Shown here in pieces: positions 18,701 to 46,931 of a DNA stretch of 64,000 bases. Each line of letters begins with the position of its first letter. Within the stretch, counting starts at the first letter, position 1. Location: NCBI RefSeq assembly GCF_900155365.1, contig NZ_LT699739.1:366333-430332 (forward strand), in the 5' to 3' direction. Made by a program: the position numbers and the translations under genes. Under the pieces are notes generated by a model. The model worked only from the letters and a program-made list of their open reading frames with translations. It did not search any database and had not been told where the DNA came from. The DNA comes from Collinsella bouchesdurhonensis (lineage in GTDB: Bacteria > Actinomycetota > Coriobacteriia > Coriobacteriales > Coriobacteriaceae).

Positions 18701-19318
18701 CTCAAGGGGGCGCAGCTGGCGGGTAATCTCGCGATTGATATCGCGAGCACGCTTGAGATGCTCATCCATGGAAGCAATCTTTTTGAGCGCGCGCTCCTTG
18801 CGACGCTTGTGTTTGGAAATGCCGGCCGCCTCTTCAATCAGAGCACGGCGCTCCTCAGGACGGCTTTGCAAGATGGCATCGAGTTTTCCCTGGCTGATGA
18901 TGGAATGAGTATCTTTGCCCAGCCCGGAATCATGCAGGATATCCTGGATGTCCATAAGCCTGCAGGGGCTCGAATTAATCAGATACTCCGACTCGCCCGA
19001 ACGATACATGCGCCTCGTAACGGCGACCTCGTTAAAGTCGACCGGAAGCATATGGTCAGAATTATCCAAAACAAGAGTGACCTCCGCCACGCCAACGGGT
19101 TTTCGCGCCGACGAGCCGGAGAAAATGACATCTTCCATGGCCTGGCCGCGCAGCTGCTTGGCACTCTGTTCGCCCAAAACCCAAAGGATAGCGTCTGAAA
19201 TATTGGATTTACCCGAACCATTGGGACCCACGATAACCGTCAGTCCGGGTTCGAAGGACATATGCGCACGATCGGCAAAGGACTTAAAGCCCTTGAGTGT
19301 CAGGGACTTGAGATACAC
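15782..19318 (-). CDS. smc: Chromosome segregation/condensation ATPase SMC
   Basis: Core of the bacterial condensin complex. 1178 residues, the usual SMC length: N-terminal ATPase half with GPNGSGKS (31-38), two long heptad coiled-coil arms, a globular hinge (about 500-650), and the C-terminal half with signature LMSGGEKSLTALALLFA and Walker B YVLDEVEAALDDSN. The partner genes scpA and scpB are not in this window. Lies between rnc (11-base gap) and ftsY, an order shared with B. subtilis. Confidence 0.97.
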   Translation of the reverse strand: MYLKSLTLKGFKSFADRAHMSFEPGLTVIVGPNGSGKSNISDAILWVLGEQSAKQLRGQAMEDVIFSGSSARKPVGVAEVTLVLDNSDHMLPVDFNEVAVTRRMYRSGESEYLINSSPCRLMDIQDILHDSGLGKDTHSIISQGKLDAILQSRPEERRALIEEAAGISKHKRRKERALKKIASMDEHLKRARDINREITRQLRPLERQVDRARKYRDLTDRANELTQILAVDELRRLQASWGDMESSSREADAAFELANYRLGEKQRELEKLQVMLEEKGLFVGDLGEQRRHMQDVVGRIGSDMRLLEEKGRNMVSRLSEMRGTLSSSEHQRKRVADELEQISAQLDEVRAAAHIAREDVDEAAPAAEKLHARRKELDVSITALTRDQRDAQRAADAAALEYVKVKETISNAELEDSMYASRLDQLDEQMENLAASLENRRSRAEELDAELTSTAQRREDAKGAIDLAQRALEELRARETEARQHLSEVRSELASLKKLDERAKGASPLTSTIANSHAGDIAARLGDLIEAPEDLESLVESLLSSDIDALVTTDEQALARLGSFAVEQKGASGEALLLSCDAAGTDPAASAAGFRLVERLSVRDGFACAVASILGGVYVVDSLDEALGAPAIPGVMYVTRDGARVTSGGAVRVGSAGDAADGALERKRRIRTLEGLEPDLSSVFEHAGHQVSEASDAVAQARSAEAEVAGDIARIEGEKRSLLSEIGRLEQSYNQSQSERKQVERRREQSASAVREAQPRLDELATTRDSERERADSLALEIEDASDELEALRREDSEAASKLADAKVRLAQSSERLRSLEARKPELEHRLEGIDRRIRSTRQASRSLEVLRLRVDPLHDRYQALSERALDWAARLRDQASIEEADSASLKKTIADARAEVERAKGEVDEAKAAQGEVKVARGKLEVQVEAAIKAITADGKTVLEEALSLPAPDDRAACERELADLARQINNLGPVNQVAFEEYERLRERADYVATQLADLESARTSLTKISQAIDRKMRRQFLTTFEAVDANFREVFSMLFPGGQAHLEMTDPEHPAQTGIEVVAQPRGKRITKMMLMSGGEKSLTALALLFAVYRTRTVPFYVLDEVEAALDDSNLSKLIGAIDVLRQSTQLLVISHQRRTMEDADVLYGVSMQADGVSRVVSQRLDRETGKVVNA

Positions 19319-19329
19319 CTATGCCTCGC

Positions 19330-20058
19330 TTATCCAAGCTTTTTCTTCAAAATGACGCCGTTATGCGTGTAGCCCATACGCTCGAGTGCGTCGAGAGCAG
19401 CTGCGGCTTCGGCCTCTTTCTTTGAAGATCCCGTACCGCGCCCACGGCGAATGCCATCGACGAGCGCAACCGCCGTGAAAGTGGGCGCATGCGCAGGACC
19501 GCTCGTGTCCACAAGCTTATACGCAGGAGGATCAAAGCGGTCACCCTGCACACACTCCTGCAAAAAGGATTTGGGATTCGAGGGATGCTCGGCACGCTCG
19601 GTTGCCAGATGCGGCTTGAGCGTACGCGAGATGAACGCCTCGGCAACATCCCAGCCACCATCGAGGTACATGGCGCCGACAAGAGACTCATAGACGTTTT
19701 CGAGCGCGGAGTGCATGCCGCGCGCGCCCGTCCCCGTCTCGGAGGCACCAAAGACGATGCATTTGTCGATACCAAGCTCGAGGCCTACATCGGAAAGCGT
19801 GGCGCCAGAAACCAGCGACACCTTAAGGCGCGTCAACTTGCCCTCATCAAAATTGGGATAGGCTTTAAACAGGGCAAGCGCCACAATAGAGCCCAAAATC
19901 GAGTCGCCCAGAAACTCCAAGCGCTCGTAGGATGCAGAGACGGGCTGGCCTTCTACAGCAGAAGGATGCGTAATGGCAGAACGAAGCAAATCGCGATCGG
20001 TAAACGTATAATCACAGATCGCCTCCGCCCGATTCATTTTTTCAGCGATCGAATACAC
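19330..20058 (-). CDS. rnc: Ribonuclease III
   Basis: Cleaves double-stranded RNA in rRNA and mRNA processing. 242 residues: endonuclease domain with ERLEFLGDSILG (family signature, catalytic acidic residues) and ENVYESLVGAMYLDGG, followed by a C-terminal dsRNA-binding domain ending in KKEAEAAAALDAL. I chose the GTG at 20058, five bases after the acpP stop, because GGGGGA inside the acpP end gives an eight-base spacing; the ATG seven codons later has only an A-run before it. Confidence 0.95.
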   Translation of the reverse strand: MYSIAEKMNRAEAICDYTFTDRDLLRSAITHPSAVEGQPVSASYERLEFLGDSILGSIVALALFKAYPNFDEGKLTRLKVSLVSGATLSDVGLELGIDKCIVFGASETGTGARGMHSALENVYESLVGAMYLDGGWDVAEAFISRTLKPHLATERAEHPSNPKSFLQECVQGDRFDPPAYKLVDTSGPAHAPTFTAVALVDGIRRGRGTGSSKKEAEAAAALDALERMGYTHNGVILKKKLG

Positions 20059-34814: not shown

Positions 34815-36941
34815 GTGAGCAAACAAAACGAAACCCTTGCCACAACCACCGTCGAGTCCTCCCTCGCCATCAGCAAAGACGATATCTATCTATTTGGCCA
34901 AGGCACTTGGCTCGGCTGCGCCGAAAAGCTCGGCTCCCACCCCGACATCGAAGATGGAACCCGCGGATGGAGTTTTGCCGTTTGGGCACCAGCGGTCCGA
35001 AGCGTAAGCGTTGTTGGAGATTTCAACGCGTGGACACCGGGGACGCATCCCCTTGCACGCGTGCATCAAAGCGATATCTGGCAGGGCTTTATCTCCGGAC
35101 TCAAGGCCGGTGAGCTGTACAAATACGCGCTGGAAACGGATTCTGGGGAGATCCTTTTCAAGGCAGATCCCATGGCAGTGGCAGATGAGCTTCCGCCGGG
35201 AACTGCCTCGAAGCTGTGGTCGCTCGATGGCTACAAGTGGAACGATGAGCTATGGCTCGAGCAGCGCCGCGCCTCAAACCACATGAAACAGCCCCTCAAT
35301 ATCTATGAGGTGCACCTGGGCAGCTGGAATCGCCATGGCAATGAGCCCCAGGGAGAGCCGCGCGAAGATGGAACCTATCCCGGCCCGGGCGACCCCTTCC
35401 CCGCCCAGCGTGGAACGTATTACAGCTACCTCGACCTTGCGCAGGAGCTTGTGCCGTACGCAAAAGATATGGGTTATACCCATATCGAAATCTTGCCGAT
35501 AACCGAGCATCCCTTCGACGGATCATGGGGCTATCAAACAACGGGCTACTACGCTACCACGGCGCGCTTTGGGACGCCTCAGGAGTTCATGCAGCTTGTC
35601 GATACCGCCCACCAAGCAGGTATCGGCGTCATCATGGACTGGGTCCCCGGCGGATTTTGCGCAGATGCCCATGGTCTCGCCACGTTCAATGGGCATATGC
35701 TCTACGAACACGAGATTCACCCCAACTGGGGAACGCACAAGTTCGACTTCTCGCGCCCCGAGGTAGTGAGCTTTCTTACTGCCAACATCTTGTTCTGGCT
35801 CGAGAACTTCCATATCGATGGCATCCGCATGGACGGCGTCTCGAGCATGCTCTATCTCAACTTCGGAATCGACAACGAATCCGATAAAAAATTCAACGCC
35901 CTAGGAACCGAGGAGGACCTGGATGCCAGCGCCTTCATTCGCTCCGTCAACACCTGTGTGTCCGAGCGCATGCCCGACGTGATGATGATCGCCGAGGAAT
36001 CCACAGCTTGGCCCCTCGTCACCTATCCGCCAAGCGAAGGCGGCTTGGGCTTCCACTACAAGTGGGATATGGGATGGATGAACGATACCCTGCATTACAT
36101 GCAAACCGATTTTCCCTGGAGACCCGGCAATCACGGACTGCTTACGTTTTCGATGATGTACGCCTTTAACGAGAACTTCGTGCTGCCGCTCTCACACGAC
36201 GAAGTCGTCAACGGCAAATGCTCACTGATCGGCCGTATGCCCGGAGATTGGTGGCGCCAGTTCGCCGGCATGCGCACGCTCGCGTTTTACCAGATAACGC
36301 ACCCGGGAGCAAAGCTCAACTTCATGGGCAATGAAATCGCTCAGTTCATCGAATGGCGCTACTACGAGTCCATTCAGTGGTTCTTAACACATGAATACGA
36401 GACCCACCGCAACCAGCAGCAATTCGTCAAAGCCCTCAACGCGTTTTATCTCGAACAACCCGCACTCTTTGAGCGCTCCTACACTCCGGACGGCTTTGAG
36501 TGGATCGATGCCGACAACGCCGATCAGTCCATTGTGACCTTTGTGCGCCATGGCGACGACCCAAAAGACGACCTGCTCATCCTTATCAACTTCGACCCGG
36601 CATCCTATGAGCGATTCCGTATAGGCGCCCCATGCGAAGGCGACTGGAAGCTCGTCTTCAATAGCGATGATGCGCGCTACGGAGGCTCTGACTATCCCGT
36701 GCGCGAGCTTGTTTCAAGCGAACCGGTTGCCTGGAACGGCAGGGAGAACTCAATCGAAACTCCCGTACCCGGTCTTGCCGGCCTTGTATTCCGCAGGATT
36801 GGGCCCTCGAGCTACGTGCCGCCCAAGGCATCCGCGCGCAAGCGTTCAAAGACCCCCGCTAAGGCATCTGCCAAAGCGTCCATTAAAACCAAAAAGAAGA
36901 AATCCCAGCGCAGCAGCGCACGCAAAGGAGAGAATGCATGA
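34815..36941 (+). CDS. glgB: 1,4-alpha-glucan branching enzyme with a basic C-terminal tail
   Basis: Introduces alpha-1,6 branches into glycogen. 708 residues: an N-terminal CBM48-like domain (FAVWAPAVRSVSVVGDFNAW, about 55-75), the GH13 barrel with nucleophile D340 (GIRMDGVSSM), acid/base E394 (MMIAEESTAWP) and D462 (LPLSHDEVVNGK), then a beta-sandwich domain. After about residue 665 comes an extra tail of about 40 residues with 15 Lys/Arg, rich in Ala and Ser (TPAKASAKASIKTKKKKSQR), which branching enzymes usually lack. Starts with GTG at 34815 and has no clear ribosome site. Its stop overlaps the glgP start (ATGA). Confidence 0.95.
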   Translation: MSKQNETLATTTVESSLAISKDDIYLFGQGTWLGCAEKLGSHPDIEDGTRGWSFAVWAPAVRSVSVVGDFNAWTPGTHPLARVHQSDIWQGFISGLKAGELYKYALETDSGEILFKADPMAVADELPPGTASKLWSLDGYKWNDELWLEQRRASNHMKQPLNIYEVHLGSWNRHGNEPQGEPREDGTYPGPGDPFPAQRGTYYSYLDLAQELVPYAKDMGYTHIEILPITEHPFDGSWGYQTTGYYATTARFGTPQEFMQLVDTAHQAGIGVIMDWVPGGFCADAHGLATFNGHMLYEHEIHPNWGTHKFDFSRPEVVSFLTANILFWLENFHIDGIRMDGVSSMLYLNFGIDNESDKKFNALGTEEDLDASAFIRSVNTCVSERMPDVMMIAEESTAWPLVTYPPSEGGLGFHYKWDMGWMNDTLHYMQTDFPWRPGNHGLLTFSMMYAFNENFVLPLSHDEVVNGKCSLIGRMPGDWWRQFAGMRTLAFYQITHPGAKLNFMGNEIAQFIEWRYYESIQWFLTHEYETHRNQQQFVKALNAFYLEQPALFERSYTPDGFEWIDADNADQSIVTFVRHGDDPKDDLLILINFDPASYERFRIGAPCEGDWKLVFNSDDARYGGSDYPVRELVSSEPVAWNGRENSIETPVPGLAGLVFRRIGPSSYVPPKASARKRSKTPAKASAKASIKTKKKKSQRSSARKGENA

Positions 36942-39367
36942 CAAAGATTTTCGAAACCCCACAGCAGTTCGCCGATGAATATCTGCGCGTTCTGACCGCC
37001 GAAGTTGGAAAGGACCTTGCCGGCTGCACCAACACCGAGCGCTACCAGGCACTCGCCAAACTTATTGCCCAAAAGGCAAACCAGCAGTTTGCGCAGTCCG
37101 ACTCGGAAAACGCCAAAAGCGACAAGAAAAAGGTCTACTATTTCTCGCTGGAGTTCCTGCTTGGTCCCCTGCTCGATAACTACCTGCTCAACTATGGTAT
37201 CCGCGATGTTGTCACCGAGGGCCTGGACAGCATGGGCATCAAGCTCGACGATGTCTTGGCCGAAGAGGGAGACCCTGGCCTGGGCAATGGCGGTCTGGGC
37301 CGCCTTGCCGCCTGCTTCCTCGACTCTATGGCCGCCGAGGGCATCTTGGGCTTTGGCAACGGCATGCGCTACCGCTACGGACTCTTCCGTCAAAAAATCG
37401 AGGGCGGACGCCAAGTCGAGGTAACCGATAACTGGCTCGACAAGGGCTACCCGTGGGAAACGCGACATGACGAGAGCTCCGTCATCGTTCGTTTTGGCGG
37501 AGAGGTTGTTCGCCATGAAGACGAAAGCGGAAAGTTCTGGTTTAGCCAAGAGGGCGGAGAGATGGTAAAGGCCGTCCCCTATGACGTGCCCATCATTGGC
37601 ATGGATGGCAAGACCGTGAATCGTCTGCGCCTGTGGAGCGCCGAGCCCGCACAAGAGGACTTCGACCTTGATGCATTCAACCGTGGCGATTACGCCGCTG
37701 CCGCGAAGTTCCGCACCGATGCCGAGGCGATCTCGGAAATCCTGTATCCCAACGATGCAGGCGAGCATGGTCGCATCCTGCGCCTTAAGCAGGAGTATCT
37801 GTTCGTTGCCGCCGGCCTTGCGTCCATCATCCGCAACTTCAAGTTCGATCACCCCGATGCCGACTGGAAACGCTTCCCCGAGCTCGTGGCAATCCACACC
37901 AACGACACGCACCCCGCCATGTGCGGCGCCGAACTGATGCGCCTGCTGGTGGATGAAGAAGGCCTGGATTGGGATACCGCCTGGGACATCGTGACCAAGA
38001 GCATTTCCTACACCAACCATACTGTTCTTCCCGAAGCCCTGGAAAAGTGGCCGATCGATACCTTCCAGCGCCTTCTTCCGCGTGTCTACATGTACATCGA
38101 CGAGATCAATCGCCGCTATATGGAATCCTTCCCGCGCGAGGGCGAAGGTTGGCAAGATCGCCTGCGCAACACCGCTATCCTTTGGGATGGACAGGTGCGC
38201 ATGGCAAACCTCTCCGTCGTCTGCTCCCATTCCGTCAACGGCGTGGCACAGATTCATACCGACATCCTCAAGCGCGAGACGCTGCATGATTTCTATGCGA
38301 TGACGCCCGAGAAGTTCAACAATAAGACCAATGGCATCTCGCCGCGTCGCTTCCTCGCAAACGCCAACCCCTCGCTTGCCCGGCTCATCACCGAAAAGAT
38401 CGGTGACGGCTGGCTGCGCGACGCCGAGGAGCTCAAGCGCCTTGAAGCCTTTGCAAATGACGATGCCTTCCTCGATGCGCTCGCTGCATCCAAACGCGAG
38501 AACAAGGAGCGCCTCGCTCGCTACATCGCTACGCAGACCGGTGTTGAGCTCGATGTGGATTCCATCTTCGACGTTCAGGTCAAGCGCTTCCATGCCTACA
38601 AGCGTCAACTGCTAAACATCTTCAAGGTCATGGACATCTACAACAGGATGCTTGCAGACCCGAGCTACAAACCGCATAAGACTTCGTTCATCTTCGCGGG
38701 CAAAGCAGCAAGCGCGTACACCTTTGCCAAGGAAACGATTCGCCTCATCAACTCCGTGGCCGACGTTGTGAACAACGACGAGCGCGTCAACGACTACATC
38801 AAGGTCGCCTTCGTTCCCAACTTCGCCGTTTCCAACGCCCAGCTTATCTACCCCGCTACCGAAATCTCCGAGCAGATCTCGACGGCTGGCAAAGAGGCGT
38901 CGGGAACCTCGAACATGAAGCTCATGATGAACGGAGCCCTTACCCTGGGCACCCTCGACGGCGCGAACATCGAAATCGCCGAGCTTGCGGGTATGCAAAA
39001 CGAAAAGATCTTCGGCATGAAAGTCGATGAAGTCGAGGCACTGCGCCGCGGCAACTACTTTGCATGGGACGTGGTGAACAACGATCGTGAACACATTGGC
39101 CGCTGCGTCAAGCAGCTCGTCGATGGCACCTTTGGTGCGCTCTCCGGCAACTTTGAGAGCATTCATGCCGAACTCATGAACAACAACGACTACGACTTTG
39201 TCATCGCCGATTTCGCGAGCTACACGCAGGCCTGGCGCGAGCTTACGGATTCCTACGACGACACACGTGAGTGGCAGCGCAAGGCACTGGCCAATATCGC
39301 GAATTCTGGGCACTTCTCGAGCGACCGCACCATCCGTGAGTACGCTCGCGATATCTGGCACGTATAG
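36938..39367 (+). CDS. glgP: Glycogen (alpha-glucan) phosphorylase
   Basis: Releases glucose-1-phosphate from glycogen chain ends. 809 residues, standard GT35 length. N-terminal VYYFSLEFLLGPLLDNYLLN, GDPGLGNGGLGRLAACFLDSM, the HTNDTHPAM loop, and the pyridoxal-phosphate lysine K661 in EASGTSNMKLMMNGALTLGT followed by LDGANIEI. No sign of the Ser-14 phosphorylation segment of animal enzymes. Translation is coupled to glgB. Having breakdown and synthesis genes in one transcript means flux must be set at enzyme level. Confidence 0.97.
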   Translation: MTKIFETPQQFADEYLRVLTAEVGKDLAGCTNTERYQALAKLIAQKANQQFAQSDSENAKSDKKKVYYFSLEFLLGPLLDNYLLNYGIRDVVTEGLDSMGIKLDDVLAEEGDPGLGNGGLGRLAACFLDSMAAEGILGFGNGMRYRYGLFRQKIEGGRQVEVTDNWLDKGYPWETRHDESSVIVRFGGEVVRHEDESGKFWFSQEGGEMVKAVPYDVPIIGMDGKTVNRLRLWSAEPAQEDFDLDAFNRGDYAAAAKFRTDAEAISEILYPNDAGEHGRILRLKQEYLFVAAGLASIIRNFKFDHPDADWKRFPELVAIHTNDTHPAMCGAELMRLLVDEEGLDWDTAWDIVTKSISYTNHTVLPEALEKWPIDTFQRLLPRVYMYIDEINRRYMESFPREGEGWQDRLRNTAILWDGQVRMANLSVVCSHSVNGVAQIHTDILKRETLHDFYAMTPEKFNNKTNGISPRRFLANANPSLARLITEKIGDGWLRDAEELKRLEAFANDDAFLDALAASKRENKERLARYIATQTGVELDVDSIFDVQVKRFHAYKRQLLNIFKVMDIYNRMLADPSYKPHKTSFIFAGKAASAYTFAKETIRLINSVADVVNNDERVNDYIKVAFVPNFAVSNAQLIYPATEISEQISTAGKEASGTSNMKLMMNGALTLGTLDGANIEIAELAGMQNEKIFGMKVDEVEALRRGNYFAWDVVNNDREHIGRCVKQLVDGTFGALSGNFESIHAELMNNNDYDFVIADFASYTQAWRELTDSYDDTREWQRKALANIANSGHFSSDRTIREYARDIWHV

Positions 39368-39397
39368 GTAACCGTCAATCGGCAAAAGGAGAAACCG

Positions 39398-40546
39398 ATG
39401 AGCAAGAAGGAATGCATTGCCATGCTCCTCGCAGGAGGACAAGGCAGTAGGCTGGGTGCATTAACCAGCAAGATCGCTAAACCAGCCGTCTCCTTCGGCG
39501 GCAAGTTCAGGATTATCGACTTTTCGCTGTCGAACTGCGCCAATTCGGGCATCGATACGGTGGGAGTGCTTACGCAATATCGCCCCTACCTCCTCAACTC
39601 CTACGTGGGCTCTGGCGAGGCATGGGATCTGGACGAGCGCGGCGCCGGCGTATCGATTCTGCCCCCTTACGCCACACAGGAAGGCGGCAGCTGGTACGCA
39701 GGGACCGCCGATGCCGTTGCGCAAAACATCGGCTACATCAAAGAGCATGACCCCGAATATGTTTTGATTCTTTCTGGCGACCATCTCTATCGCATGGATT
39801 ATCGCAAGATGCTCAAGTCGCATATCGAGCATAACGCCGATCTCACGATTTCGGTCATGCCCGTACCCTGGGAAGAGGCCAGCCGCTTCGGCATCATCAC
39901 CAAGGACCCCGAGGACGATCGCATCCTCAAGTTTACGGAGAAGCCCGAGAAGCCCGATTCCAACCTTGCCTCCATGGGCATTTACATCTTCAGCACCAAG
40001 CTTTTGATTGATGCCCTCGAGGAAGATGCCCTCGACCCGCGCTCCAGTCATGATTTTGGCAAGGACATCATCCCCAAACTTCTTGAAGAAAACCGCCGTC
40101 TGTACTGCTATGAGTTCCATGGCTTCTGGAAAGACGTCGGCACCATTTCGAGCTTCCACGAAACCTCGATGGATCTGCTGGGCGAAAATCCCGAGTTCGA
40201 CCTGTTCGACAAGAACTTCCCCATCATGAGCAACGTCACCACGCGCCCACCGCACTACATTGGATCAGATGCGCGCGTCGAGGATTGCTTGATCTCAAAT
40301 GGATGCAAGGTCTTTGGCTCCGTGCGCCACTCCATCATCTCGACCGACTGCGTAATTGACGAGCGCGCCGTCGTTGAGGATTCGGTGCTGCTACCCGGCG
40401 CCCATGTCAAGGCCGGCGCCCACGTGGCCCGTGCGATTCTGGGCGAAAACTCGACGGTCGAAGAAGACGTCAAGCTCGGCAGCGTTGACGTTACAAAGGA
40501 CACCGCCGTCGTTGGTAATGATGTCGTGATCGGGAAGGGGGAATGA
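39398..40546 (+). CDS. glgC: Glucose-1-phosphate adenylyltransferase, catalytic subunit
   Basis: Makes ADP-glucose, the committed step of glycogen synthesis. 382 residues: N-terminal nucleotidyltransferase domain with [22 protein letters not shown] (usually GGRGTRL) and [16 protein letters not shown], catalytic region [28 protein letters not shown], and a C-terminal left-handed beta-helix. Pairs with glgD four bases downstream, so the active form is expected to be a GlgC-GlgD heterotetramer as in Bacillus and clostridia. Ribosome site AAAGGAG. Confidence 0.96.
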
Positions 40547-40550
40547 ACCG

Positions 40551-41684
40551 ATGATCAACCGTAAAGCCATCGGCTACATCACCGCAAACTATACCTGTCG
40601 CACGAGCTCCAAGCTCACCGAATGCCGTCCCCTGGCGGCCCTGCCAGTCTTTGGCCGCTATCGCCTGATCGACTTCCCGCTCTCCAACATGATGAACGCC
40701 GGCATCAAAACCGTCGGCGTCGTGATGCCGAGCAATTACCGCTCGCTTATCGACCATATGGAGTCGGGCCGCGATTGGATGCTCGACCGCAAAAAAGGCG
40801 GCCTGTTCTTGCTCCCCGGCAACGCATTCGGCGCCTCCAAGCGTGGCATGCGCTTCCTGCTGCGCGACATCATCGCCAACAAGACGCTCTTCCAGCGCTC
40901 CGACCTGCCCTATGTGGTCATGTGCGGATGCAACATCATCTTCAACATCGACCTCGCCGAAATCATCGATGCCCACGAGCGCTCTGGCGCCCACGCCACG
41001 ATGGTGTACTGTCGCGCAGAGCGCGAACACGACGATGACGTAACCGCTCTGGAAATTGGCGAGGCGGGACGCGTGCACGCCCTACACGCCGGATGCTCCT
41101 TCGGCGACAACAAATTCCTTGACTGCTGCGTCATCAACCGAAACGTGCTGCTCGACATTATCGACAACTATCAAGACGTTGATCATCTGGACCTCTTTGA
41201 GGCCATCGAGCCCGAGTTCGGCCGCATCGACGTATGCTCTTACGAGTTCAAGGACCTGGCATTCGGTGTCTTTGATGAGCAGTCTTACTACCAGCGCTCC
41301 ATGGAGATGCTGCGCCCCGACCTGAACGACCGCTTGTTCAACCCCGATCGTCCCATCATGACCAAGGCACACGACGCACCGCCCGCAAAGTACTGCACGG
41401 GCAGCACGGTGTGCAACTCCTTGGTGTCTGCAGGATGTTTGATTCAAGGTACGGTACGCGGGTCCATCCTTGCACGCGACGTTATCGTTGAGCACGGCGC
41501 CTCGGTATCGAACTCGATCATCATGCAGAGCTGCGTGATTCGTAGCGGGGCGCGCGTGGAGAACGCCATCGTCGATAAGAACAACGTGATTCCGGCGCAG
41601 ACAGAGCTGCGTGGCACCCCCGACGCAACCCTCATCATCCCCAAGGCGCCCCTGGCGACCAAGGAGCTTGCAACCCTTGACTAA
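40551..41684 (+). CDS. glgD: Glucose-1-phosphate adenylyltransferase, regulatory subunit GlgD
   Basis: 377 residues, GlgC-like fold but without the GGxGxRL pyrophosphorylase loop at the N-terminus (starts MINRKAIGYITANYTCRTSS), while keeping RPLAALPVFGRYRLIDFPLSNMMNAGI and the C-terminal beta-helix. This is the known pattern of GlgD, a modulatory partner that raises GlgC activity, so it should not be read as a broken glgC. Follows glgC after a four-base gap. Confidence 0.94.
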   Translation: MINRKAIGYITANYTCRTSSKLTECRPLAALPVFGRYRLIDFPLSNMMNAGIKTVGVVMPSNYRSLIDHMESGRDWMLDRKKGGLFLLPGNAFGASKRGMRFLLRDIIANKTLFQRSDLPYVVMCGCNIIFNIDLAEIIDAHERSGAHATMVYCRAEREHDDDVTALEIGEAGRVHALHAGCSFGDNKFLDCCVINRNVLLDIIDNYQDVDHLDLFEAIEPEFGRIDVCSYEFKDLAFGVFDEQSYYQRSMEMLRPDLNDRLFNPDRPIMTKAHDAPPAKYCTGSTVCNSLVSAGCLIQGTVRGSILARDVIVEHGASVSNSIIMQSCVIRSGARVENAIVDKNNVIPAQTELRGTPDATLIIPKAPLATKELATLD

Positions 41685-41730
41685 CCCCAACGGTTCACGT
41701 GACCCGCGACAAAGAAAGGAAACCCAGCAT

Positions 41731-43497
41731 ATGACCGAAGCGGCAACCAAACCCCTCCATGTGGTGTTCGCGAGCGCGGAGGCCGCTCCGTTTGTCAAGA
41801 CGGGTGGCCTTGGCGATGTCGCGGGCTCGCTCCCCCATGCCTTGAAGGCGGCTGGGGCAGAAGTCATCGTGATGGTGCCCAAATACTCCACAATCGATAG
41901 CTCCTACCTCAACCAGATGGAGCATGTCACCGATTTTTACGTGCCCCTGGGATGGCGCAACGAGTACTGCGGCCTTGAGCGCCTCGTGTACGACGGCATC
42001 ACGTATCTGTTTGTAGACAACGAGCGCTATTTTAAGCGCGATTATCCGTATGGCTTTTTTGACGATGGCGAACGCTTCGCATTCTTCTCCAAAGCCATCT
42101 GCGAGTCCCTGCAGCACCTACCAGATGGTTTTGTCTGCGATATCCTGCACTGCAACGACTGGCACACCGCCATGGCGCCTGTGTTTTTGCGCGAGTTCTA
42201 CCAGGGTCTTCCCCTGTACGAAAACGTGCGCACCGTCTATTCCATCCACAACATCGCGTTCCAGGGGCAATTCAGCGACTTTGTCCTCGGCGATATCCTG
42301 GGACTCGGCGGCGTGGAAGCCGCGGCACGCCAGCTGAGAAGCGATGCCGATTCCATCAACTACATGCTCGGCGCCATCAACTACTCCGACGCCATTACAA
42401 CCGTATCTCCCAGTTATGCAGAAGAGATTCGCACGCCCGAATACGGCGAGGGCCTCGACGGCGCCCTGCGTCGCCGTCAAAATGTCCTGCACGGCATCGT
42501 CAACGGCATCGACGTGGCGCGCAATGATCCGGCACACGACAAGCGCATCGCTGCACCCTACTCGATAGAAGACATGACGGGCAAGGCGCTTTGCAAGAAG
42601 GCCATTCAAGAAGAGCTGGGGCTTGAGGTACGAGACGACCGTCCCCTCCTGGTTATGGTTACGCGCCTCACCAGGCAAAAGGGTATGGATCTGGTCATGT
42701 ACTGCCTTGAGCGTATCCTCGACGGTGGTGTTCAGGTGGCAGTTCTGGGCACGGGCGATGCCGACTACGAAGATGCCCTGCGCTGGTATCAATCGGTCTA
42801 TCCCAGTCAGATGGCGGCACGCATTGAGTTCGATCCGGCGCTTTCGCAGCGGATGTATGCCGGTGCCGATATGTTCCTCATGCCCTCGCTCTTTGAGCCA
42901 TGCGGATTATCCCAAATGATTGCCATGCGCTATGGCACCCTGCCCATCGTACGCGAAACGGGCGGCCTTCGTGATACCGTGACCCCGTACAACCAGTACA
43001 CGGGAGAAGGCACAGGTTTTTCGTTCGCACACTTCAATGGTGAGGAAATGGGCGATACGGTCTTCCGCGCGGCACGTCTGTTCTGGGACGAGCCCAGCGT
43101 ATGGAAGAAGCTTGTATTCCAGGCCATGTCCTGCGACTTTAGCTGGACGGCATCTGCTGCGCGCTATCTTGACCTTTACCTGAGCCTGCACCCGGATTGC
43201 AGCCTGCCTCAACCTGAGGCAGCACCCAAATCGGCCGCCGCTGGCAAACCAAAAGCCGAAGCTGCCAAAGGCACCCCGGCTGCCAAGCCCAAGCCTACGG
43301 CAAAGTCCGCATCGACGCGAATGCGCAAGACGACCGCTGCAAAAGCAGAGACCTCTTCGAACTCGACAAAAACCGCCGAGAATCCCGCGAAATCGGTCAG
43401 GGCGCGCAAAACGAGCGGCAACGGCACAAAAAAGGCCGCCTCGCGCAAGATGTCCTCCACCGAGCCGAAAGGCCGCAGCCGATCAAACAGTAAGTAA
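41731..43497 (+). CDS. glgA: Glycogen synthase (ADP-glucose) with a long basic C-terminal tail
   Basis: Transfers glucose from ADP-glucose to the glycogen chain. 588 residues. The catalytic GT5 part (1 to about 490) has KTGGLGDVAGSLP (from K23), HCNDWHTAM, VTRLTRQKGMD, and MPSLFEPCGLSQMIAMRYGTLPI. The last 96 residues (493-588) form a low-complexity tail of Ala, Lys, Ser, Thr and Pro with 24 Lys/Arg and five Glu; typical GlgA ends near residue 480-490. ATG at 41731 is after AAAGGA; the frame is open further upstream but overlaps glgD. Last gene of the operon, followed by a strong terminator. Confidence 0.95.
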   Translation: MTEAATKPLHVVFASAEAAPFVKTGGLGDVAGSLPHALKAAGAEVIVMVPKYSTIDSSYLNQMEHVTDFYVPLGWRNEYCGLERLVYDGITYLFVDNERYFKRDYPYGFFDDGERFAFFSKAICESLQHLPDGFVCDILHCNDWHTAMAPVFLREFYQGLPLYENVRTVYSIHNIAFQGQFSDFVLGDILGLGGVEAAARQLRSDADSINYMLGAINYSDAITTVSPSYAEEIRTPEYGEGLDGALRRRQNVLHGIVNGIDVARNDPAHDKRIAAPYSIEDMTGKALCKKAIQEELGLEVRDDRPLLVMVTRLTRQKGMDLVMYCLERILDGGVQVAVLGTGDADYEDALRWYQSVYPSQMAARIEFDPALSQRMYAGADMFLMPSLFEPCGLSQMIAMRYGTLPIVRETGGLRDTVTPYNQYTGEGTGFSFAHFNGEEMGDTVFRAARLFWDEPSVWKKLVFQAMSCDFSWTASAARYLDLYLSLHPDCSLPQPEAAPKSAAAGKPKAEAAKGTPAAKPKPTAKSASTRMRKTTAAKAETSSNSTKTAENPAKSVRARKTSGNGTKKAASRKMSSTEPKGRSRSNSK

Positions 43498-43634: not shown

Positions 43635-46600
43635 ATGACTTTCCGACACAACTCCCGTTCCCCTCAATTTAGAAGCCCCTTTGGAGCAGTCCCCTGCAAC
43701 ACGACAGTGCGCCTGAGCTGCCAGGTCGATAGCTGCCAAGCTCAAGAAACAACATGCACGCTGCGCATCTGGATCGATGGCGAAGGCGAAACGCTCATTG
43801 CCATGGATCGTGGCGAAAACGGCATGTTCTCGACAACGTTTACCAGGGACACACCGGCTATCGTCTGGTACTCGTTCATCATTTGCCAGGCCGACGGCAC
43901 CGAAGTGCGCATCGGAGCCCCGGCGGGCGCCCAGGGCGGCGAGGGCGTTGTCTATGACTACACAGAAGTTCCCTCGTTCCAGCTCACGGTGTATCAGCCG
44001 CGCCGCCAGCGCCCTGCATGGTATGAAAATGGCATTGCCTATCAAATCTTCCCGGACCGCTTTGCGCGCGACGCTGCCTGGCGCGAGCGAACTGCAACCG
44101 AATGCGCAAAGCCCCGACGCGGCAGCACCAAGCACCTCATAGAGGATTGGTCCACACCCCCCACCTATAGCAGAAACCCCGACGGCTCCATTACCTCATG
44201 GGACTTCTACGGCGGATCGCTCAAGGGCATCGAAGAAAAACTCCCCCACTTGAGCGAAATGGGCATTACGGCAATCTACCTCAACCCCATTTTCGAAGCT
44301 GTGAGCAATCATCGATACGACACGGCAAACTATCTGCATATCGATCCGATGCTGGGAACCGACGGAGACTTTCGCGACCTATGCCAAGCAGCACACGAGC
44401 ATGGCATCGGCATCATTCTCGATGGCGTCTTTAACCATACGGGCGACGACTCAATCTATTTCAACCGTTACGAGAACTATCCCGCTCCTGGCGCCTGGCA
44501 AGGTGGAACTTCACCCTGGAGAGACGCCTTCAACTTCAACGAAGACGGGACCTACGAGTGCTGGTGGGGCGTAACCAACATGCCGGCGCTCAACGAAAAC
44601 TCCCCCGCCGTTCGTGAGCTATTGCTGGGAAAAGACGGCGTGATTCGCCACTGGCTACGCATGGGTGCCGACGGCTGGCGCCTGGATGTGGCAGACGAGC
44701 TTACCGATGGTTTTATCGCCGAAATCAAGCGAGCGGCGACTACCGAAAAGCCCGACGCGCTCGTACTGGGTGAAGTCTGGGAAGACGCTTCGAATAAGAT
44801 CAGCTATGGCAATCTTCGTCGCTACCTGCTGGGCGATGAGCTCGATGCGGCCATGAACTATCCGTTCCGCGACATGGTGATCGGCTTTCTTACCGGCGCT
44901 GAGGGCATCGACGCCTACCGTGCCGCCGAGACGATCGAGTCGCAAAGCGAGAACTATCCTGCGGAGGCCTTGCGCTGCTCGCTCAACCTTCTGAGCAGCC
45001 ATGACCGCGCACGCATCATCTCGGTTTTAGGCGGGATGGACAATCCGGATGGCATTCCCGAAAACGAGCGGGCAACATGGCGTCTGTCAGGCGACAAGCT
45101 CGGTCTTGCCAAGGGCCGATTCTGGCTCGCCACGCTCATGCAGATGACCTATCCGGGCGTACCGTGCATTTATTACGGCGATGAAGCAGGCCTGCAAGGC
45201 GCCACAGACCCCGGCAACCGCTCAACCTACCCATGGGGACATGAAGACCTGGATTTCCAGGCTATGATTAAAAACGCCGCCTCTCTTCGCCGGTCTATGC
45301 CGCTACTTGGAACCGCATCGATTGAGGCTCGAGCTCTCGATGCCGACGTCCTCATGTACACGAGGCACGGCGCTCACAACGAGCACGTGAGCATGCTCAT
45401 CAATCGCGATTCCTGCAACACGCATACGGTGCGCATTCCGTTTATGGGAGAAGCCGCGACCGACCTCATTTCTGGGCACACCCTCCGCGCAGATGTCGAT
45501 GGCATGACGACGGTAACGCTGTACCCCCTGGGCAGTGCTGCTGTCTATTTTCATTCGCGCGAGCGCCTGCAAAAGCCGCTTTGCCACGGTTGGGGCGTGA
45601 TGTGCCACGTCACTTCCATCCCCTGTGAGGGCAAGCCCGGTACCCTGGGCGCTCCAGCACGTCGCTTTGTCGATCATCTACAGGAAATGGGAGCATCGTA
45701 TTGGCAGGTTCTGCCTCTCAACCCAACCGATGAACATCGTTCTCCCTACGCTGGCCCTTCTGCCTTTGCAGGCAATATCGACCTCTTGGAGGAAGACTGC
45801 GCCGCGCTTCAAAAGCAATATCGCGCATTCATCGCAAGCGATGGCGAACACCAAGCTGATTTTCGCGCTTTCGCCGAGCGCGCAAGCACCTGGCTCGACC
45901 CCTACTGCGCATTCGCAGCAGTGAAAGATGTGCACGACGGAGCATCCCGACATACCTGGGAAGAAAAGCTTTCGCGCTACGATATCGCGATTCTCGACGA
46001 CCCTGCCTATCGAGAACGCGCACGCTTCCATACCTTCGCGCAATATCGTTTTGACTGCGAGTGGCGCGAGCTTAAACGCTACGCCAACGAGCGCGGTATT
46101 CGCATCATCGGCGATATCCCCATGTACGTCTCGGACGATTCTGCCGATACCTGGAGCGAACCGGAGATGTTCCAACTCGATGCAGCGGGATTGCCGGCAG
46201 AAATCGCCGGCACTCCACCCGACCGCTTCTCCGAGACAGGACAAGTTTGGGGAAACCCCACGTTCCGTTGGCGCCATATGCACGACGACGGCTACGTATG
46301 GTGGACTGAGCGTCTGCGCCGTTCTCTCGATCTTTATGACGAGGTGCGCCTGGACCACTTCCTTGGCTTCCAGTCGTACTTCTCCATCCCTGCCGGGATG
46401 ACCGGTTCCGCAGGCCGATGGATTCCCGGTCCCGGTCTGGAACTGTTCGAACACATTCACGAAAAGCTGGGACCCCTGCCCTTCATAGCCGAGGACCTGG
46501 GGTATCTCACACCCGCCGTGCGCGCGCTCAAAGTGCAGTGCGGCTTCCCCGGTATGGATGTACTTGAGTTTAGCGACGATGATCCCCGTTTCTCAATGCC

Positions 46601-46931
46601 CGACAATCCGGCAAACGTGGTTTACACCTCAACCCATGACACCTCAACACTCATGGGCTGGGTGAAATCTCGCTGGTTTGCAAACGCAAGCGAAAACGAT
46701 CCGGAGCTTCAACAAACCGCCCTCGACATGATCGAACGTGCATTCAAAAGCAGCAGTCCTCTTGTTATGCTTACGCTCCAAGACGTGATGCTCTTGGGCG
46801 ATGATGCTCGCATGAATGTTCCCGGGACCACCGGCGGCAATTGGTCTTGGCAGGCAACCGAAAAAGAACTCGAGGCCTCGATTGAGCGCATGAAAGAAGT
46901 TGCGGTGCGTTGCGGACGAGCTCTTATGTGA
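43635..46931 (+). CDS. GH13 alpha-glucan hydrolase fused to GH77 4-alpha-glucanotransferase
   Basis: One 1098-residue chain. Residues about 1-125: beta domain like the N-module of neopullulanase. 130-640: GH13 barrel, AYQIFPDRF (135-143), DGVFNHTG, nucleophile D351 (GWRLDVADE), acid/base E380 (VLGEVWED) and D457 (LSSHDRA), then a C-terminal beta domain. 650-1098: complete GH77 (MalQ) with SPYAGPSAFAGN, GDIPMYVSDDSADTW, nucleophile D907 (VRLDHFLGF), E953 (IAEDLG) and D1002 (STHDTSTLMGW). No signal peptide, so cytoplasmic. Both active sites look intact. It likely cleaves or debranches glycogen or maltodextrins and re-shuffles the oligosaccharides for GlgP. Own promoter; ribosome site AAAGGA 11 bases before the ATG. 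Confidence 0.93.
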   Translation: MTFRHNSRSPQFRSPFGAVPCNTTVRLSCQVDSCQAQETTCTLRIWIDGEGETLIAMDRGENGMFSTTFTRDTPAIVWYSFIICQADGTEVRIGAPAGAQGGEGVVYDYTEVPSFQLTVYQPRRQRPAWYENGIAYQIFPDRFARDAAWRERTATECAKPRRGSTKHLIEDWSTPPTYSRNPDGSITSWDFYGGSLKGIEEKLPHLSEMGITAIYLNPIFEAVSNHRYDTANYLHIDPMLGTDGDFRDLCQAAHEHGIGIILDGVFNHTGDDSIYFNRYENYPAPGAWQGGTSPWRDAFNFNEDGTYECWWGVTNMPALNENSPAVRELLLGKDGVIRHWLRMGADGWRLDVADELTDGFIAEIKRAATTEKPDALVLGEVWEDASNKISYGNLRRYLLGDELDAAMNYPFRDMVIGFLTGAEGIDAYRAAETIESQSENYPAEALRCSLNLLSSHDRARIISVLGGMDNPDGIPENERATWRLSGDKLGLAKGRFWLATLMQMTYPGVPCIYYGDEAGLQGATDPGNRSTYPWGHEDLDFQAMIKNAASLRRSMPLLGTASIEARALDADVLMYTRHGAHNEHVSMLINRDSCNTHTVRIPFMGEAATDLISGHTLRADVDGMTTVTLYPLGSAAVYFHSRERLQKPLCHGWGVMCHVTSIPCEGKPGTLGAPARRFVDHLQEMGASYWQVLPLNPTDEHRSPYAGPSAFAGNIDLLEEDCAALQKQYRAFIASDGEHQADFRAFAERASTWLDPYCAFAAVKDVHDGASRHTWEEKLSRYDIAILDDPAYRERARFHTFAQYRFDCEWRELKRYANERGIRIIGDIPMYVSDDSADTWSEPEMFQLDAAGLPAEIAGTPPDRFSETGQVWGNPTFRWRHMHDDGYVWWTERLRRSLDLYDEVRLDHFLGFQSYFSIPAGMTGSAGRWIPGPGLELFEHIHEKLGPLPFIAEDLGYLTPAVRALKVQCGFPGMDVLEFSDDDPRFSMPDNPANVVYTSTHDTSTLMGWVKSRWFANASENDPELQQTALDMIERAFKSSSPLVMLTLQDVMLLGDDARMNVPGTTGGNWSWQATEKELEASIERMKEVAVRCGRALM

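Follow-up and report, generated by a model that had tools for sequence, protein, structure and literature searches.

Lysine-rich C-terminal tails of the glycogen branching enzyme and glycogen synthase in Collinsella bouchesdurhonensis and its relatives: putative polycation arms under selection for positive charge

The glycogen operon of Collinsella bouchesdurhonensis (class Coriobacteriia) was analysed within a stretch of 64,000 nucleotides (the window; contig NZ_LT699739.1, positions 366,333 to 430,332 of the forward strand). Two of its products, the glycogen branching enzyme GlgB and the glycogen synthase GlgA, carry lysine-rich C-terminal tails beyond their family cores. We propose, at a probability of a little under 60%, that both tails are disordered polycation arms for a putative polyanion, kept by selection for regularly spaced lysines. 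The positive charge of the tails is under selection, since the Lys/Arg positions change far less than the small-residue spacers between them; the spacers drift near the rate of four-fold degenerate sites, while the lysines evolve far below it.

Both proteins belong to the classical families. GlgB scored 800.9 bits in NF003811 (cut-off 741) with the full domain set of CBM_48, Alpha-amylase and Alpha-amylase_C, and GlgA scored 658.4 bits in NF001898 (cut-off 603). Compared to classical bacterial GlgB and GlgA, which have the same domains over the NCBIfam cut-offs and cores that end alike, the two proteins have 48 and 102 extra residues, respectively. Matches to solved GlgB chains stopped at residues 653–665, and those to solved GlgA chains stopped at 483–494, except one partial match that stopped at 427. 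Past residue 660, the 48 residues of GlgB comprise 11 Lys, 5 Arg, 1 Glu and no Asp, and 15 of the Lys/Arg fall within the final 38 residues, as the original prediction had described for the end of this protein. The 102 residues of GlgA past residue 486 comprise 17 Lys, 7 Arg, 5 Glu and 1 Asp, in agreement with the earlier description of 96 residues with 24 Lys/Arg and five Glu. Disorder prediction had been suggested as a check, and it gave the expected result over most of both tails: in AlphaFold2 models built from 23-row alignments, GlgA 501–588 and GlgB 678–708 lacked secondary structure and had a predicted local distance difference test score (pLDDT) below 50. The first ten residues of the GlgB tail (661–670) were modelled confidently (block mean pLDDT 91). 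The GlgB model, made from a shallow alignment, also contained six further low-confidence stretches outside the tail.

The selection analysis used 21 closely related species of the genus. The ratios of non-synonymous to synonymous polymorphism (pN/pS) were 0.30 for the GlgA tail and 0.40 for the GlgB tail, and those of the cores were 0.045 (GlgA) and 0.033 (GlgB). Within the tails, the fraction of non-majority residues per non-synonymous site was 0.010 (GlgA) and 0.013 (GlgB) in Lys/Arg columns, compared to 0.074 and 0.093 in Ala/Thr/Ser/Pro columns, i.e., about seven times less change (p = 2e-16 and 1e-5, respectively, one-sided rank test). Lys columns were invariant in 40 of 52 cases in GlgA tails and 14 of 21 in GlgB tails, versus 14 of 82 and 4 of 26 Ala columns. 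Glu columns of GlgA tails changed at 0.049 per site, against the 0.010 of Lys/Arg. At four-fold degenerate sites of the cores, the deviation from the majority base was 0.085 for C (n = 187), 0.127 for G (n = 119), 0.156 for T (n = 14) and 0.286 for A (n = 4). The lysine conservation is thus unlikely to result from A-rich codons mutating slowly.

The lysines are also regularly spaced. Lys/Arg gaps of 4 and 5 made up 24.6% and 26.5% of gaps in 42 GlgA tails (10.4% and 8.0% in shuffled sequences) and 22.1% and 13.1% in 98 GlgB tails (10.4% and 7.3% shuffled); this comparison was run without the first fifth of the GlgA tails and the first 11 residues of the GlgB tails, and it kept a single one of the 21 close species. 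Part of the 4–5 residue spacing could stem from the duplication of short repeats.

To place the tails among relatives, a tail was defined as an extension of at least 25 residues with a net charge of at least +5. The 146 genomes of the class were a non-random set, comprising the complete genus as collected (43 species, own genome included), 19 others of the family, and members of other families taken by genus spread and with both genes placed. Seven were dropped because a gene was absent, truncated or disrupted (G032, G200, G248, G276, G277, G346, G389). Among the remaining 139, both tails were found in 62, a GlgB tail only in 56, neither in 21, and a GlgA tail only in none. The supposition that the tails occur together thus held in one direction, with GlgA tails found only beside GlgB tails, but not in the other. 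Of the dropped genomes, the draft G389 (L207, L298, L322) has glgB in two frames and a GlgA with a 246-residue Glu/Lys/Ala tail unlike the others.

The window's own family (f1) and family f2 should correspond to the Coriobacteriaceae and the Atopobiaceae, respectively. Family f1 contributed 56 genomes with both tails and three with a GlgB tail only, all three from genus g5, in which GlgA stops 4 residues past the core. Family f2 had 4 with both, 51 with GlgB only and 5 with neither, and family f3 had 2, 2 and 12, respectively; neither tail was found in one f5, two f6 and one f13 genome. One genome with both tails (G306, 89% complete) has GlgA and GlgB at 59% and 39% identity to the query. In the genus, both tails passed the threshold in 42 of the 42 genomes with both ends readable, which bears out the expectation that close relatives would share them. 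The GlgA tails of these 42 genomes were 102–466 residues long with net charges of +12 to +46, and the GlgB tails were 25–128 residues long with net charges of +5 to +32; the window's two tails are short members of the set of relatives. Two of the GlgB tails are weak cases: that of G026 has a net charge of only +5, and that of G024 was counted as 51 residues (+7) and passed only through counted core, with about 13 residues lying past it. The GlgA of G042, which has an unreadable base in its tail, was counted in the 139-genome tally and excluded from the set of 55 GlgA tails analysed below. The GlgB ends of G275 and G282 continue into GlgC-like sequence and were scored as having no tail; the loci (L307 and L306, respectively) show an apparent GlgB–GlgC fusion in an open frame of 1061 aa.

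Mapped onto a tree of the concatenated GlgA and GlgB cores (FastTree), the GlgA tail changed state 5 times and the GlgB tail 7 times, counts in which gain and loss are not distinguishable and in which one GlgA-tail change may be spurious owing to the doubtful place of G306. Outside the class sample, 65 further loci, mostly of Bacillota by title and taken as the best GlgA matches rather than as a random draw, were scored with a threshold of 20 residues. Basic tails were found in 15 of 51 closed GlgB, one of the 15 being titled Coriobacteriaceae, and in 0 of 63 closed GlgA. The short basic GlgB tails of these loci contradict, for GlgB, the idea that the tails are confined to one group. Most simply read, the distribution in the class (62 both, 56 GlgB only, none GlgA only) makes the GlgB arm the more ancient and more widespread trait, with the GlgA arm as a later addition. 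In loci mostly titled Oscillospiraceae or Ruminococcaceae (L036, L038, L043, L051–L053, L055), GlgA runs on for about 635–664 residues, a fusion of another kind.

The other enzymes of the operon served as controls. A basic extension was found in 0 of 121 GlgP, 1 of 136 GlgC (L246) and 0 of 139 GlgD proteins from related loci, a single exception in 396, consistent with the earlier remark that these three lack such tails. Within the operon, the arms are thus nearly restricted to the polymer-building pair GlgA and GlgB.

The tails of the two enzymes have different anatomies. Among 120 basic GlgB tails, 63 have a linker of the Ser-Ser-Tyr-x-Pro type (S[SPT][YF]x[APS]) close to their start and 33 one of the Leu-Pro type, the linker patterns having been chosen after the tails had been inspected. 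In 30 family representatives, identity among GlgB tails was 59% over the first 10 residues and 34% and 30% over the next two tens. Of 55 GlgA tails from the window's family, 52 begin with a fifth whose net charge is zero or below (mean −0.146 per residue), and the remaining fifths average 0.142 to 0.188 per residue. In the Coriobacteriaceae, an acidic, proline-rich stretch of this kind separates the GlgA arm from the enzyme. A basic end element such as KATSVSAARKTTTRKKR closes 40 of the 55 GlgA tails and occurs nowhere else in the tails, by a pattern chosen after the ends had been seen; the same pattern was absent from the window's own GlgA. By plain C-anchored identity, the end element was not set apart (0.296, versus 0.303–0.343 in the rest of the tail), whereas its composition-corrected excess identity was 0.081, versus 0.014–0.020 further in. 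On balance, many GlgA tails likely have a basic C-terminal end element.

Tails of this kind are rare in the part sampled of the C. bouchesdurhonensis genome (1,876,212 bases in 15 contigs). In a sample of 690,674 bases (37%) with 495 genes called and GlgA added by hand, we looked for proteins that reach or surpass GlgB or GlgA in net charge as well as in Lys/Arg/Ala/Pro/Ser/Thr content. Within the 45 C-terminal residues, for which 479 proteins were long enough, the sole match to GlgB was topoisomerase I, and only topoisomerase I and GlgB matched GlgA. Over the last 90 residues, a span longer than the GlgB tail, three other proteins matched GlgB and none matched GlgA. In the same survey, no comparable basic C-terminal end was found on GlgP, GlgC, GlgD or the product of the next operon gene. 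The one other comparable C-terminal tail in the sample thus sits on a DNA enzyme, which speaks for the proposed polycation arms. This DNA topoisomerase I (L351:18112–19980, minus strand; own genome, C15; 622 readable residues) has zinc ribbons followed by a C-terminal lysine arm of the KKTTA type, and the arm gave a weak Pfam match to the histone H1-like HC2 family (E = 3.6e-4, below the cut-off). Similar stretches away from the C-terminus were seen in Rho, which has a highly charged N-terminal extension of about 320 residues ahead of its Rho_N domain (L338:8040–10268, minus strand; C15), and in two BMC-domain shell proteins, which are adjoining and near-identical, with long Lys/Ala/Pro-rich N-terminal extensions (L347:18297–18995 and 19003–19701, minus strand; C15).

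The closest known counterpart is the lysine-repeat region of actinobacterial topoisomerase I. These repeats are reported to keep the enzyme on DNA and to boost its processivity, and Streptomyces topoisomerase I without them dissociates more readily from DNA and is less processive (PMC7398561). The likeness lies in a C-terminal, low-complexity, lysine-rich arm with small-residue spacers; the GlgA and GlgB tails are likewise C-terminal, predicted to be disordered, and lysine-rich with small-residue spacers. However, the topoisomerase arm belongs to a DNA enzyme with a reported effect on retention and processivity, whereas the two enzymes that bear the arms described here act on glycogen and are not known to have a charged polymer as substrate. 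A resemblance to histone H1 and HU tails had also been suggested. Composition and lysine spacing support it, as histone H1-like tails and HC2 are comparable in being Lys/Ala-rich with regularly spaced lysines, and so presumably is the tail of HupB. Family models gave no such support: five tails compared with Pfam matched no family at E up to 1, be it histone, HC2 or HU. For the topoisomerase I repeats, a likeness to H1 has been stated in print (PMC7398561). In the portion searched of a 2024 review of prokaryotic alpha-glucan enzymes (PMC11046441; the first 300,000 of 445,374 characters), the terms "disordered", "lysine-rich" and "C-terminal tail" were absent, and a literature search, whose coverage left out most subscription papers and preprints, returned no paper that deals, by its title or the start of its abstract, with lysine-rich or disordered GlgA or GlgB tails.

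On the proposed polycation arms, regularly spaced lysines on nearly neutral small-residue spacers would form a sticky arm. By analogy with topoisomerase I, whose lysine repeats hold it on DNA, the arms may tether GlgB to a polyanion or close to one, nucleic acid being the likeliest candidate, and in the Coriobacteriaceae may do the same for GlgA. Glycogen has been reported to phase-separate and to exclude fluorescent proteins under E. coli-like conditions (PMC12706056), and an arm anchoring GlgB in one place could therefore be an advantage; the tether could hold the branching enzyme at a chosen site or prevent its exclusion from the growing glycogen condensate. The GlgA arm of the Coriobacteriaceae, which starts with the acidic, proline-rich fifth and often closes with a basic end element, may add a second contact, possibly to the GlgB arm. 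A more ambitious version, which we consider rather doubtful, would have glycogen synthesis in Atopobiaceae and Coriobacteriaceae placed at the nucleoid, on RNA or on polysomes by a GlgB arm acting as a nucleic-acid tether, and would have this turned into a two-enzyme assembly by the GlgA arm, a later addition that brought an acidic hinge and a basic end element.

Several points weigh against the polycation-arm proposal. The binding partner is putative, and glycogen is a neutral polymer on which a polycation arm has no obvious role. Selection on charge could also serve solubility or protein–protein contact. The tail lysines are freer than core lysines (about 0.023 versus 0.008 non-majority per column, the former derived from 0.010 per site and 2.33 sites for AAG), and the aligner may favour the pairing of lysines, a bias that would be larger for GlgA, whose tails are gappy, than for GlgB, whose tails align with few gaps. 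Very short GlgB tails occur in some genomes in which both genes are retained: G104 and G116 have 14 residues each, and G024 has about 13 genuine ones. The negative histone, HC2 and HU searches above also count against the proposal, and the parallel with topoisomerase I is inexact, since the genome's own enzyme has zinc ribbons before its arm, while the studied actinobacterial enzymes are described as lacking zinc fingers (PMC7398561).

Binding to a polyanion, as suggested in the original prediction, fits the selection for positive charge, but one partner named there fares worse. The window's genome has the polyphosphate kinase PPK1 (PF02503), and 275 of 396 genomes of the class have it. Eleven tailed genomes at least 97% complete were listed without it (G016, G024 with its marginal GlgB tail, G026, G083, G126, G131, G148, G159, G186, G189, G192), and polyphosphate made by PPK1 was accordingly rejected as a necessary partner; PPK2 was not searched. 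Polyphosphate-binding PASK tracts are poly-acidic, Ser- and Lys-rich, i.e., rich in Asp/Glu plus Ser and Lys. The tails differ from them in composition, with 2.6% Glu, 1.2% Asp and 8.3% Ser in 120 GlgB tails and 9.5% Glu, 1.3% Asp and 3.5% Ser in 55 GlgA tails. The other suggested role, that the tails hold GlgA and GlgB together, cannot be the whole one, because in 56 of 139 genomes GlgB is armed and GlgA has no tail.

Among the other explanations, it is unlikely that the tails are entropic bristles, charged disordered chains that keep the enzymes soluble or spaced in crowded glycogen condensates and bind nothing specifically. Such a bristle would have no need of positive over negative charge, yet Lys/Arg columns are more conserved than Glu columns, and GlgP, GlgC and GlgD do without one. 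Low complexity and the great variation in length, more than fourfold for GlgA in one genus, would agree with it, as would the glycogen phase separation and protein exclusion cited above (PMC12706056). Tail-to-tail adhesion, in which the acidic proline-rich first fifth of the GlgA tail touches the basic GlgB arm to form an assembly or coacervate at the growing particle, has a slighter chance. The non-positive first fifth ahead of basic ones and the occurrence of GlgA tails only beside GlgB tails are in its favour; the many armed GlgB with a tailless GlgA partner argue against it, as do the mere 6 acidic residues in the window's whole GlgA tail. There is little to recommend a regulatory tail whose lysines are acetylated or otherwise modified to switch activity or retention. 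Individual lysines are conserved, and acetylation of the topoisomerase I repeats has been called likely from unpublished preliminary work (PMC7398561), but the residues flanking the lysines drift, which would be unusual for sites recognised by an enzyme. Finally, a neutral by-product of slippage in GC-rich DNA, adding Ala/Lys/Thr/Pro codons to tolerant protein ends, would explain the low complexity and very unequal lengths but is highly improbable given pN/pS well below 1, mixed synonymous codons for Ala and Thr, lysines retained while their neighbours drift, the four-fold-site rates, and the presence of just three such C-terminal tails (topoisomerase I, GlgB and GlgA) in the genome sample.

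The genes of the operon are in the order glgB, glgP, glgC, glgD and glgA, followed by a GH13–amylomaltase gene; glgP, glgC, glgD and the last gene were named by reading their translations. The start of glgA was placed at the ATG at 41731, preceded by AGAAAGGA, and is nested in a longer open frame from 41611. Directly 3' of glgA, a single gene of 1098 aa (43635–46931, plus strand) reads in translation as a GH13 enzyme fused to amylomaltase (MalQ).

Table 1. Positions in the window of the two glycogen enzymes, their tails and the control genes.
Feature	Position	Strand	Basis
glgB, glycogen branching enzyme, 708 aa	34815..36941	+	NCBIfam equivalog GlgB over cut-off; Pfam CBM_48, Alpha-amylase, Alpha-amylase_C
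GlgB C-terminal tail, 48 aa, net +15; last 38 aa are the putative lysine-rich arm proper	36795..36938	+	past residue 660, end of family models; composition; pLDDT
Conserved linker SSYVPP opening the GlgB tail	36807..36824	+	motif count, identity of first 10 residues, confident model
glgP, control without arm	36938..39367	+	C-terminal survey of genome sample; related loci
glgC, control without arm	39398..40546	+	C-terminal survey of genome sample; related loci
glgD, control without arm	40551..41684	+	C-terminal survey of genome sample; related loci
glgA, glycogen synthase, 588 aa	41731..43497	+	NCBIfam equivalog GlgA over cut-off; start read from sequence
GlgA C-terminal lysine-rich putative arm, 102 aa, net +18	43189..43494	+	past residue 486; composition; pLDDT

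What determines the site of glycogen formation in bacteria is an unsettled question, as is the means by which the enzymes remain with a polymer able to keep proteins out once it condenses. The related genera with armed and unarmed GlgA offer a natural comparison, with a selected arm on the polymer-building pair and not on its operon neighbours. If the arms are indeed nucleic-acid tethers, the sugar store would be built at a chosen site in the cell, and the glycogen body would be sited by a built-in means, with no scaffold protein. Lysine-repeat arms, familiar from DNA enzymes, would also prove to have been co-opted in a storage pathway.

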